From Anaerolineae bacterium (lineage in GTDB: Bacteria > Chloroflexota > Anaerolineae > 4572-78 > J111), in assembly GCA_020433835.1 (NCBI GenBank), contig JAGRBY010000481.1:1-5721 (forward strand): DNA of 5,721 nt, read 5' to 3'. Positions within the stretch are counted from its first letter, which is position 1. Every line of letters begins with the position of its first letter. Positions 2,320 to 5,582 of the stretch are shown here, piece after piece. The translations under genes and the position numbers were made by a program. The notes beneath the pieces were generated by a model. That model saw only the letters and a program-made list of their open reading frames with translations, was not told the origin of the DNA and searched no databases.

Positions 2320-2326
2320 AAGCGTG

Positions 2327-3172
2327 TTGTACAAAATTCGTGATCTCGAAACCTACGACGAAATGAAGAACGTGCGAGCACTACAACAAGAAATTTGGGG
2401 TTTTGATGACGCATCGCTGGGATTATATCCGCCGGTGCTAAAAACAGCGGCAACAAATGGTGGAGTAGTTTTAGGGGCAGTCGATGAGGAAACCGATAAA
2501 ATGATAGGTTTCCTTTTTAGTTTTATTGGACGTGAAAAAAGCGGTCTCTTTAAGCTCTGTTCGCAAAATATGGGTGTGCTCAAAGACTGGCGGCGGTATG
2601 GCATCGCCGAGGAACTTAAACAGGAGCAGCGCCGGCGAACCATAGACCAGGGGTTGCCGCTGATTACCTGGACGTACGATCCGCTTGAAGGGCCGAACGC
2701 CAACCTGAATTTGCACAAGTTACGTGCCATCAGCCGCACCTATTATCGCGATTATTACGGCATCGACTTTGGAACACTCAATGCGGGTTTACCTTCAGAC
2801 CGTTTACTGGTGGAATGGTGGGTGAGTGGTGCCAGACAATCGGACTCTCAGGAAACTGATCAATCGCAAGCCGTGGCTATCTTCTCGGTTGAGGGGCAGG
2901 GGGTTGATAAGCACATTGCCGATATGAATCTGGATTTGCAGGCCGAAACGCTTGAGCTGGAAAGTGTGCCCGATATCCATCCCCTTAAAAACGCGAATAT
3001 GTCCTTGGCCCTCGATTGGCGATTGAAGATGCGTGAAGCATTTGAAAGTTATTTTGCTAAAGGCTACATCGCCACCGATTTTACGTCAACCGTTACCGGC
3101 GGTGAGCGGCGGAACTGCTACATCTTGCAAAAATCTTCTGCAACGTTATTGGCAACAATTGGAATTGAGTAA
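2327..3172 (+). CDS. GNAT-family acetyltransferase, COG3375-like
   Basis: Predicted acetyl-CoA-dependent N-acyltransferase; the substrate is unknown. The 281-residue protein (from the TTG at 2327) opens with YKIRDL and the segment LQQEIWGFDD, typical of COG3375 proteins. The acetyl-CoA loop R-x-x-G-x-A is at 89-94 (RRYGIA), preceded by the beta-4 strand MGVLKDW. WTYDPLE (115-121) with NLNLHKL (126-132), and GLPSDRLLVEWW (154-165), are further signature stretches of this group. Residues after about 170 form a more variable region. Start choice: AAGGAG at 2314-2319 lies 7 bases before TTG 2327 and only 4 before GTG 2324, so 2327 fits better, but GTG 2324 cannot be excluded. A TTG at 2300 would place the binding site inside the gene and is unlikely. 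The next gene starts 3 bases after its stop, so the two are probably translated together. The family call is confident; the substrate is not known. Confidence 0.88.
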   Translation: MYKIRDLETYDEMKNVRALQQEIWGFDDASLGLYPPVLKTAATNGGVVLGAVDEETDKMIGFLFSFIGREKSGLFKLCSQNMGVLKDWRRYGIAEELKQEQRRRTIDQGLPLITWTYDPLEGPNANLNLHKLRAISRTYYRDYYGIDFGTLNAGLPSDRLLVEWWVSGARQSDSQETDQSQAVAIFSVEGQGVDKHIADMNLDLQAETLELESVPDIHPLKNANMSLALDWRLKMREAFESYFAKGYIATDFTSTVTGGERRNCYILQKSSATLLATIGIE

Positions 3173-3175
3173 GCG

Positions 3176-3547
3176 ATGATAAAACCCTACCAACATTGGC
3201 TTCTGTGGGACGGCGACTGAGGCTTCTGACGACGAACAACCGTCTGGGTCAGACGGCAGGATTTACAAGAGAAATTTTATATGGTGCCTTATCAGGATTG
3301 TCCATCTCCACCGATGACGCCGCAGCTTTATCGAGCCTGTGAAGAGGCTATCCATGTTATCACCCGCAACGGTCAGGTGTTGAGAGCGGGCCGTGCGGCT
3401 ATGTTTATCTTGGAACAGATTGGATATCCGCGTTGGCTTGTTCGACCCTTTACCTGGCTTCCTCTGTTATGGGTTACCGAGTTGGGATATCGCATCATAG
3501 CCGATCACCGGCCCTTTTTTAGCAAGTTTTTGTTTACCAAAGATTGA
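3176..3547 (+). CDS. Predicted selenoprotein: DCC-family (DUF393) thiol-disulfide oxidoreductase with U-x-x-U active site
   Basis: The frame from ATG 3176 encodes 123 residues if two in-frame TGAs (3218-3220, 3227-3229) are read as selenocysteine. The N-terminus then reads LLWDGD-Sec15-GF-Sec18-RR, which is the DCC family signature D-G-D-C-x-F-C with both cysteines replaced. The rest is intact family sequence: TTVWVRRQD, the strand FYMVPYQD (34-41), AIHVITRNGQVLRAGRAAMFIL (split here as AIHVITRNG and QVLRAGRAAMFIL), and the C-terminal hydrophobic helix with GYRIIADHRPFFSKFLF. Length matches the family (about 110-150 aa). DCC proteins are predicted thioredoxin-like redox enzymes. A SECIS-like hairpin follows the second TGA (3240-3256). 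The start is 3 bases after the acetyltransferase stop, with a weak GAG at 3167-3169, implying translational coupling. The gene ends in tandem TGA TGA. The alternatives are a pseudogene, or an 88-residue fragment from ATG 3281 that lacks the active site. Two losses hitting exactly the two catalytic Cys codons, with the frame otherwise intact, make these less likely. Confidence 0.85.
3240..3256 (+). promoter_or_regulatory. Putative bacterial SECIS element
   Basis: CCGTCTG (3240-3246) pairs perfectly with CAGACGG (3250-3256) around the loop GGT (3247-3249). The 17-base size equals the minimal upper stem-loop of the E. coli fdhF SECIS, which also carries a GGU in its apical region for SelB recognition. 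There are 17 bases between the second TGA and the loop, and 26 between the first TGA and the loop. Both fall within the roughly 16-37 base range known for bacterial SECIS elements. The element lies inside the coding sequence, as bacterial SECIS elements do, and encodes part of TTVWVRR. SelB binding is inferred, not shown. Confidence 0.78.
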
Positions 3548-3662: not shown

Positions 3663-5582
3663 ATGCAATTACCCATCGTATTTAACGATCGCTATCAACT
3701 TTTCAAAAAAATTGGTGAAGGCGGCTTGGCCGAGGTCTACCAAGCTCAGGATATGTCGTTGGGCCGCTCGGTGGCGGTTAAGGTGCTGCGACTTCAATAT
3801 ACGCGCGATCCTTCTTTTTTGGTGAACTTCCATCGCGAAGCCCAAAGTGCCGCCCGTTTGAGTAATCCTCATATCGTGGCTGTGTATGATTTCGGACAGT
3901 ACAACGACCGGCCTTACATTGTGCTGGAATGGGTGCCCGGATCTGATCTACGCACGATGCTCAACGAACGCGGCAAAGTTTCTGTTGAGCAGGCGGTTGA
4001 GTTTGGGATTCACGTTTGCTCTGCGGTTGGTACAGCGCACCGAGCCGGATTGGTGCATGGCGATTTGAAACCCGGCAATATTCTGATAACACCCAGCCAT
4101 CAAGCTAAGGTGGCCGACTTCGGTCTGGCCCGGGCCTTGGGCGAAAGCGCGATGGATGAGGGTGAAGTCGTGTGGGGTACGCCCGCCTATTTTGCGCCGG
4201 AACAAGCCTCAGGCGACCGGGTACTGCCGGCCACTGATGTATATGCCATCGGCATTATTTTGTATGAGATGGTTACCGGTCGTGTCCCATTTGTTGGTGT
4301 TGACGATCAGGACGTAGCTCGTAAGCAAATCTATGAAGCCCACATTCCCATTGACAAGATCGACCCTCGCATTCCTGAACCACTGGCCCGTATTGTGGAT
4401 GCGGCAATGGCCAAAAACCCCAATGAGCGCTTTCTTACCGCCGATCATCTGCGTGAAGCACTGATGATGTTCCAGCAGGGCAATCTGATGGGGACGGCTT
4501 CGCAAATGCCTATCTCTGCCGTAGTCGGATCGCCGGTGCAGGGACAGGGGCGTTCTGCTCAGAATCGAGGAGCAGCGTCCGGACGTCGACCGCCTGCCGG
4601 TTCAACCCGGTCGTCGGGATTGGGCATCGATATGATTATGATACTGCTCGGCTTGCTGGCGATTGTTGCCGTTTTGGGGCTGGTGCCGCTGTTTGTAGCG
4701 CTTTATAATGCCTACCAACCGGGTGTGAATTCATCGGCGGCGGGCGAGTTACCGGCAGGTCAGGTACGTATGCCGGATTTGGTGGGGTTAGAAGAGAGTA
4801 CGGCCCGTTCGGCACTGGAGAATATGGGACTGATATTGGAAGTGAACGGCGAAGAGCCGCATCCCACCTGGCCGGCTTTTACAATTATCGAACAGTCGAT
4901 TCTGCCGGGAGCTGCTGTGGCTGAAGGTTCAGTAGTTAACGTTATATTGAGCCAGGGACCGCCCTTAATTGAAATACCCGATGCCCGCGGAATGCGGTAT
5001 GAGGAAGCAGAGCAGCAGCTTCAGGCACTCGATCTCGTTGTGCAAAAATATGAGGATTGGAGTACGGAAACGCCGGGGGTTGTGACCCTGCAAGAGCCGC
5101 CTCCCAACTCGCTGGTTGCTAACCGTACGCTGGTGACGCTGGTGGTGAGCAGCGGAGCCAGAAGCCCCGTTGGAGCTAATTTAGGCGGCCAAATCGCTTT
5201 AAATGCCTACGAACTGCCGCGTTTGCAATACCGCCCTGGTGAGTCGGTGGCCATTTCTTTCTTTTGGCAGGCGATTACCCCTCCTACCGATAACTACAAT
5301 CTTTTTATTCGTTTGACAACGCCTGAGGGTGGCATTGTATCTGAAATTGATGAGCGCCCTCAAAATGGCTCGGCCCTCACCTCCAATTGGCAAGTGGGGC
5401 AAACAATTATTGATCCCTATCAACTTTCTATCCCCCAAACGACAGTTGCGGGTGATTACGAAATTCGGGTTGGTTTTTACAATCCGGCCACAAATACGCG
5501 TCTGCCTATCACCGATGCAGGCCGGGCCGAGGCCGATGACCTTGGCTCGTTGGTATTGCGAACCATTCAGGTTGTTCGATAA
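3663..5582 (+). CDS. Membrane-anchored PASTA-domain Ser/Thr protein kinase (PknB-like) with extra C-terminal beta domain
   Basis: This 639-residue Hanks-type kinase has a full catalytic domain: glycine loop GEGGLAEVY (18-26), ATP lysine in VAVK (Lys40), helix-C Glu59, catalytic loop HGDLKPGN (132-139, Asp134), DFG (152-154), GTPAYFAPE (172-180) and TDVYAIGIILYEMVTG. The catalytic loop has Gly instead of Arg before Asp134, so it is a non-RD kinase. A Gly/Ser/Arg-rich linker (about 275-320) leads to one transmembrane helix (about 324-347). Outside the membrane come two PASTA repeats (about 366-432 and 435-498), which in PknB/PrkC bind peptidoglycan fragments. A further domain follows (about 509-638) whose YELPRLQYRPGESVAISFFWQA and later AGDYEIRVGFYNPATNTRLP parts resemble a beta-sandwich module of Chloroflexota surface proteins (resemblance by eye). 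The likely role is envelope sensing and phosphorylation of cytoplasmic targets. No clear ribosome binding site precedes the ATG at 3663. It is probably transcribed apart from the upstream pair. Confidence 0.93.
   Translation: MQLPIVFNDRYQLFKKIGEGGLAEVYQAQDMSLGRSVAVKVLRLQYTRDPSFLVNFHREAQSAARLSNPHIVAVYDFGQYNDRPYIVLEWVPGSDLRTMLNERGKVSVEQAVEFGIHVCSAVGTAHRAGLVHGDLKPGNILITPSHQAKVADFGLARALGESAMDEGEVVWGTPAYFAPEQASGDRVLPATDVYAIGIILYEMVTGRVPFVGVDDQDVARKQIYEAHIPIDKIDPRIPEPLARIVDAAMAKNPNERFLTADHLREALMMFQQGNLMGTASQMPISAVVGSPVQGQGRSAQNRGAASGRRPPAGSTRSSGLGIDMIMILLGLLAIVAVLGLVPLFVALYNAYQPGVNSSAAGELPAGQVRMPDLVGLEESTARSALENMGLILEVNGEEPHPTWPAFTIIEQSILPGAAVAEGSVVNVILSQGPPLIEIPDARGMRYEEAEQQLQALDLVVQKYEDWSTETPGVVTLQEPPPNSLVANRTLVTLVVSSGARSPVGANLGGQIALNAYELPRLQYRPGESVAISFFWQAITPPTDNYNLFIRLTTPEGGIVSEIDERPQNGSALTSNWQVGQTIIDPYQLSIPQTTVAGDYEIRVGFYNPATNTRLPITDAGRAEADDLGSLVLRTIQVVR

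Follow-up and report, generated by a model that had tools for sequence, protein, structure and literature searches.

A DCC1-like oxidoreductase gene with UGA at both active-site cysteine codons: a likely Sec-x-x-Sec selenoprotein with one downstream SECIS predicted to serve two UGAs

SelL is a UxxU selenoprotein, that is, it carries two selenocysteine (Sec) residues three positions apart, for which a diselenide is expected. Table 1 of PMC13188914, in the available text of that source, names among the UxxU selenoproteins a Prx-like thiol:disulfide oxidoreductase, the NF041115 metal-binding protein, and an FmdB-like protein, and the available text of PMC2398784 gives a UxxU Prx-like 2 in the GOS data. 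As to the RNA signal, the legend of Fig. 2 in the accessible part of PMC13188914 defines the bacterial SECIS (bSECIS) as a stem-loop with a UGA-to-loop spacing of 16–37 nt.

The gene described here belongs by profile to another family, the DCC1-like thiol-disulfide oxidoreductases (PF04134, DUF393; YuxK in source names). It lies in a 5,721-nt stretch of DNA from an Anaerolineae bacterium, the whole of which was analysed and is called the window below. Its D-x-x-[C/U]-x-x-[C/U] motif is placed as in the DCC1-like family, but both catalytic Cys codons are UGA and are followed by a SECIS-type hairpin. The predicted product would share with the Prx-like, NF041115, FmdB-like, and SelL proteins two Sec residues three positions apart and an expected diselenide, whereas those proteins represent other domain families; the window gene stands outside them because Pfam finds only PF04134 in it (the sole match at E ≤ 0.001, the peroxiredoxin-like domain PF00578 being absent). 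It is highly probable, in our judgement, that the gene encodes a Sec-x-x-Sec selenoprotein whose two active-site UGAs are served by a single downstream bacterial SECIS.

When translated, the gene at 3176–3547 reads MIKPYQHWLLWDGD-U-GF-U-RRTTVWVRRQD...FLFTKD and ends in TGA at 3545–3547; the only internal stops of the frame are the two TGAs at residues 15 and 18 (Table 1). With U read as Cys, the product matches the DCC1-like profile with E 8.2e-16 and 59.7 bits over positions 1–109 of 113, above the Pfam gathering score of 27.8 bits for PF04134. Both TGAs coincide in register with the two Cys of the family redox motif D-x-x-C-x-x-C, where relatives have Cys, TGA, or both. Translation and profile match thus bear out the first-pass annotation, which had described a frame open except for two TGAs at the catalytic Cys codons and had foreseen that gene callers would report an 88-residue protein; the ORF 3281–3547 is indeed the database entry P0002 (88 aa) for this contig. 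In the predicted fold, U15 and U18 lie at the N-terminal end of a helix, and matches to solved structures are weak. A search of solved structures by sequence returned four light-harvesting peptides with E 0.074 or worse, which were taken for chance. Neither viral relatives nor a PHROG match were found.

Table 1. Features of the window, with coordinates, strand, and the basis of each assignment.
Feature	Position	Strand	Description	Basis
FtsK/SpoIIIE-like gene, then small genes of 129, 84, and 73 codons	2–2131			
Upstream neighbour gene	2324–3172	+	start codon uncertain, no Pfam match; outside the proposed mechanism	
DCC1-like (PF04134) gene	3176–3547	+	123 codons, TGA at codons 15 and 18, final stop TGA	translation, Pfam
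First in-frame TGA (codon 15)	3218–3220	+	first active-site Cys position, predicted Sec	aligned loci
Second in-frame TGA (codon 18)	3227–3229	+	second active-site Cys position, predicted Sec	aligned loci
Predicted bacterial SECIS	3240–3256	+	7-bp stem CCGUCUG/CAGACGG, loop GGU (3247–3249)	conservation, covariation, covariance model
88-aa ORF without active site (P0002)	3281–3547	+	output of ordinary gene calling	
Ser/Thr protein kinase with PASTA domains	3663–5582		ordinary	Pfam

That gene callers list the 88-aa ORF would also agree with a broken gene, in which translation truly ends at the TGAs and no more than this downstream ORF is produced. The pattern of substitutions argues otherwise. 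In the comparison of the window with L001, L057, and L058, residues 6–14, before the TGAs, show 8, 6, and 21 substitutions at codon positions 1, 2, and 3 (21/35 at the third), and residues 19–46, after the TGAs, show 47, 24, and 89; such a third-position excess both before and after the TGAs points to coding constraint on both sides. A further test of this reading is provided by the relatives.

Classification of 98 DCC loci, the window included, gave 63 with Cys-x-x-Cys, 30 with TGA-x-x-TGA, and 5 with Cys-x-x-TGA. Every one of the 65 motif stop codons is TGA, with no TAA or TAG there in any of the 98 loci, among which there is also no TGA-x-x-Cys (Sec-x-x-Cys) gene. TGA-bearing loci were encountered in Anaerolineae, Thermomicrobiales, Myxococcota, Acidobacteriota, Armatimonadota, and in one “Cyanobacteria” MAG. 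Fifteen loci are from named genomes, six being Cys-x-x-Cys and nine TGA-x-x-TGA; the latter are L001 (Anaerolineae), L003 (Polyangia), L010 (Myxococcales), L005, L007, and L013 (three Pyrinomonadaceae), L008 and L011 (two copies in one Thermomicrobiales genome, G008), and L012 (a MAG titled Cyanobacteria bacterium RYN_339). The two DCC genes of G008 are 62% identical. While querying genome contigs with a single protein gave no matches, an alignment query including the short relatives did. Six taxon surveys, which differ in query and threshold, found matches in 25 of 396 genomes from the class of G001 at E ≤ 1e-6 (two TGAs in 6, one TGA in 1, the G175 fragment excluded) and, at E ≤ 1e-10, in 6 of 347 genomes from the phylum of G005 (two TGAs in 1, one in 0), 27 of 329 from the phylum of G010 (13 and 3), 4 of 158 from the class of G008 (2 and 0), 57 of 291 from the phylum of G002, Armatimonadota (3 and 3), and 1 of 254 from the phylum of G011 (1 and 0). 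For Armatimonadota, 30 of the 57 matches were taken as loci, the other 27, including G1304 (two TGAs) and G1306 and G1303 (one TGA each), lying outside the classification. The readable single-TGA loci (L078, L090, L096, L098, and L133) are all Cys-x-x-TGA. Repeats (L056, L081, L087, L114, L118, L119, L121, L123, L128, L139, and L149) were dropped from the counts, as was L080 from genome G175, a motif-less fragment that matches DCC residues 77–120 with one TGA and one TAG inside and looks like a decayed copy.

This fragment can be cited in favour of a broken gene; apart from it, no stops were found elsewhere in the gene among close relatives, the sign of decay for which the first-pass annotation had provided. 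The pair of TGAs recurs across several phyla, in 30 loci whose frame is open before and after it, TAA and TAG are lacking at the motif, and the hairpin considered below is conserved and covarying, all of which makes a broken gene extremely unlikely. Assembly error, raised at the same time, is no explanation either because the same two TGAs are found in some 30 independent loci. The anticipated Cys-x-x-Cys homologues and other TGA-x-x-TGA genes, aligned at the same two codons, proved to exist in several phyla.

The protein databases give a different picture of the family. A protein search found 130 relatives; among the 120 matches listed, 59 (the window's entry counted) are 76–88 aa long, and the 58 other short relatives, when aligned, all start past the motif. 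Judging from the protein entries alone, many of the short database relatives would be truncated Sec genes. Of eight full-length relatives examined, seven are Cys-x-x-Cys, whereas P0003 (148 aa) has W-D-G-D-W-G-F-W. The Trp-x-x-Trp of P0003, known from the protein entry alone, is probably the product of a TGA=Trp (code-4) gene call on a TGA-x-x-TGA gene. It can also be held to favour UGAs read as an ordinary amino acid, either Trp via a changed code or Cys via a Cys-charged UCA tRNA, as can the Cys found at both positions in homologues and the TAA ends of the window's three ORFs of at least 200 codons. However, Trp is incapable of the redox chemistry of the DCC family, which was counted against the Trp reading, and in all nine relatives' loci examined, at least one mechanically called ORF of 200 or more codons ends in TGA, contrary to a changed code. 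The hairpin and the Sec machinery bear on this reading as well.

A SECIS-like hairpin had been noticed after the TGAs, and its position at 3240–3256, conservation in double-TGA genes, and covariation corroborate that observation. The hairpin CCGUCUG-GGU-CAGACGG has a folding energy of −10.2 kcal/mol, and its loop lies 17 nt from the second UGA and 26 nt from the first. In loop (GGU), stem length (7 bp), spacing, and energy, it conforms for both UGAs to the bSECIS criteria in the available text of PMC13188914, sharing with the bacterial SECIS described there the 3-nt loop, the 7-bp stem, and G at loop positions 1 and 2. In the DNA from the 98 loci, the 7-bp stem and 3-nt loop stand at a fixed offset after the motif. 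The inner five pairs are formed in 28/30 double-TGA genes (exceptions L077 and L094) and in three of the five Cys-TGA genes, namely L090 (1741–1773), L096 (1537–1569), and L098 (1744–1776), the exceptions being L078 and L133; in the Cys-Cys genes, they are formed in only 1/63 (L073). The three TGA-bearing genes in which the standard hairpin is missing (L077, L078, and L133) were counted against the Sec reading, and so was L094, where one inner pair is broken. L077 (genome G130) belongs to a more distant DCC subfamily, reads GN-TGA-GF-TGA, and perhaps reflects an independent gain of Sec with a different SECIS.

Pairing tests on the first 73 loci, which predate L120–L148 (the final counts above being from all 98), gave a mean of 6.5 pairs of seven in TGA-TGA, 6.25 in Cys-TGA, and 2.44 in Cys-Cys genes. 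This contrast was reached in 0 of 20000 label permutations and was gone when the 3′ arm was slid by 1–3 nt. In the alignment of the 35 TGA-bearing sequences, pairing is seen in 91.4% of cells, and six of the seven pairs have changed on both sides; the covariation score is 0.273 against a shuffled mean of 0.136, with 0/500 shuffles as high, a control that kinship may inflate, though slid versions also score far lower. The coding sequence carries the same imprint. The codon for Arg26 is AGR (AGG or AGA) in 31/31 TGA-bearing genes versus 2/27 Cys genes (Fisher p 2e-14), although further along the TGA-bearing genes only 15 of 364 Arg codons are AGR; the Val25 codon is GTC in 27/28 TGA-bearing versus 4/23 Cys genes. 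Codon choice at Val25/Arg26 is, on these alignments, fixed by the hairpin stem.

A covariance model, which scores sequence as well as pairing, was trained on 20 double-TGA genes, none of them from Anaerolineae or Thermomicrobiales. In the window it finds the hairpin with 40.2 bits (E 5.6e-11), the next best match having 8.9 bits. On 49 loci unused in building, 28 of the 63 Cys loci being outside this test, it detects 11/14 other TGA loci versus 0/35 Cys loci at E ≤ 0.01; the best match in the Cys loci has E 0.012 and lies away from the gene. The hairpin is thus above chance because it is conserved, covarying, and found by a held-out model. Its fold energy is unremarkable (z about −1.8 to −1.9), and fold energy alone was rejected as SECIS evidence. 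A 50-nt piece including the UGAs prefers another fold (−14.8 kcal/mol), which was counted against the Sec reading. Two sub-threshold Rfam matches in the window were taken for chance.

Bacterial SECIS elements are a known type of signal; the difference here is that one hairpin stands within range of two UGAs nine nucleotides apart, and no bacterial precedent for one hairpin serving two UGAs was evident among the papers listed by a literature search aimed at it. It may be supposed that UGA18 alone is efficiently recoded, UGA15 mostly terminating or using another element, so that the protein would be rare or selenium-regulated. The unequal distances of the two UGAs from the hairpin accord with this supposition, as do the Cys-x-x-TGA genes with the same hairpin (L090, L096, and L098), which imply that the hairpin can act where only the second codon is UGA. 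On the other hand, 26 and 17 nt are both within the range published in the available text of PMC13188914, UGA15 is kept in 30 of the 35 TGA-bearing genes, and Sec-x-x-Cys genes number 0 among the 98 loci, both of the latter being odd if UGA15 blocked expression. We give recoding of UGA18 alone a small chance and regard a SECIS common to both UGAs as the likely arrangement and the most unusual feature of the family.

Thirty relatives' genomes that carry a TGA-bearing DCC gene were searched for the Sec machinery, 8 of them reached via the named loci and 22 via the surveys, six Armatimonadota genomes with TGA-bearing matches standing outside this sample. A tRNA-Sec is present in 28/30 (not G157 or G1224), SelB over the cut-off in 28/30 and SelA in 28/30 (in both cases not G332 or G326), and SelD in 27/30 (not G001, G157, or G1224). 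The tRNA-Sec match in G332 is long and weaker (56.7 bits), and the lack of a SelD match in G001, the closest syntenic genome, was counted against the Sec reading. Of the 27 genomes in which SelD was matched, 22 have, as expected of Sec users, a selD gene with its own in-frame TGA, whose product is probably itself a selenoprotein. No TGA-form genome (0/30) lacks both tRNA-Sec and SelB, versus 7/41 Cys-form genomes (G004, G013, G056, G170, G189, G252, and G972); because one or the other is present in 34/41 Cys-form genomes, the machinery is consistent with Sec while discriminating weakly. ARAGORN reads a tRNA-Sec with anticodon UCA in 8/8 double-TGA genomes and 4/6 Cys-form genomes given to it; in G004 and G013, which have low-scoring RF01852 matches, it reads tRNA-Ser and tRNA-Arg.

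These results also weigh on the decoding of UGA as Cys or Trp. ARAGORN assigns the UCA tRNA of the eight double-TGA genomes as tRNA-Sec, tRNA-Sec, SelB, SelA, and SelD occur in nearly all genomes tested, and a SECIS-type hairpin, unneeded for a plain suppressor or a code change, accompanies the UGAs, so that an ordinary amino acid is very unlikely here. The pseudogene and code-change readings were rejected on the recurrent TGA pair, the covarying hairpin, and the Sec machinery.

The distribution of the forms suggests, from the aligned sequences, repeated switching between Sec and Cys in the DCC family. A tree of 98 rows, with the two trait residues masked, is poorly resolved; the best tree needs 16 Sec/Cys changes, of which its well-supported branches force only 4 for the Cys group and 3 for the Sec-Sec group. 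One TGA-x-x-TGA gene clusters with three Cys-x-x-TGA myxobacterial genes (support 88), and Cys-x-x-Sec may possibly be an intermediate in the switching.

The neighbourhood of the gene is conserved only inside Anaerolineae-like loci. The gene directly upstream, which we take to be acetyltransferase-like, is syntenic in L001 and L060. The order FtsK-like, membrane, 84-aa, 73-aa, and presumably acetyltransferase-like is the same in L001, whose FtsK is 78% identical to that of the window, and is partly kept in L058 and L060. This shared order makes an Anaerolineae-type bacterium the most likely source of the window. Twenty ORFs that flank 18 of the other 34 TGA-bearing loci show no recurring partner gene: EVE is found twice (L094 and L090), the rest of those with Pfam matches are each different, and seven of the twenty have no Pfam match, one being the syntenic gene of L001. 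Since neighbours differ between loci, the context names no substrate.

The following mechanism can be proposed. SelB with Sec-tRNA-Sec would bind the GGU-loop hairpin and insert Sec twice, first at codon 15 and then at codon 18. The resulting protein of 123 residues, with a predicted thioredoxin/glutaredoxin-like fold, would carry U15 and U18 at the start of its first helix, where the pair may alternate between the selenolate and diselenide states as a partner is reduced or oxidised. The support for this comes from the DNA itself, namely from the frame, the TGA positions, the conservation and covariation of the hairpin, the Sec/Cys exchange, and the Sec machinery of relatives. These tests favour the two-selenocysteine DCC enzyme of the earlier proposal, in which Sec would enter at both UGAs, one hairpin would be common to them, and diselenide chemistry would be expected.

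The first-pass annotation knew of no description of the two-Sec form for DUF393, and the available text of the 2026 inventory, which covers 119 prokaryotic selenoprotein families and subfamilies, has no PF04134 or DCC entry either (PMC13188914). The term DCC is absent from PMC13188914, PMC12013277, and PMC9312934, and a full-text search, with subscription papers, preprints, and GenBank records outside it, found no literature joining selenoprotein or selenocysteine with DCC, DUF393, PF04134, COG3011, or YuxK. Among the NCBIfam release 20 models, none fits a Sec form of DCC. The DCC double-Sec form is thus apparently a widespread, unlisted selenoprotein family with a predicted Sec-x-x-Sec site. 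It seems to us probable that this is an undescribed double-Sec family with one SECIS for two UGAs nine nucleotides apart, and that Cys-Cys, Cys-Sec, and Sec-Sec forms were switched several times across bacterial phyla.

The Sec forms of the DCC family stay hidden because gene calling leaves only a stub that lacks the active site; with PF04134 entered in the selenoprotein inventory, annotations in several phyla would be corrected. As nature provides Cys-x-x-Cys, Cys-x-x-Sec, and Sec-x-x-Sec versions of the gene for comparison, two questions become testable: how one bacterial SECIS serves two UGAs at different distances, and what the advantage of a diselenide active site may be, for which repeated switching, if true, would provide a natural test.
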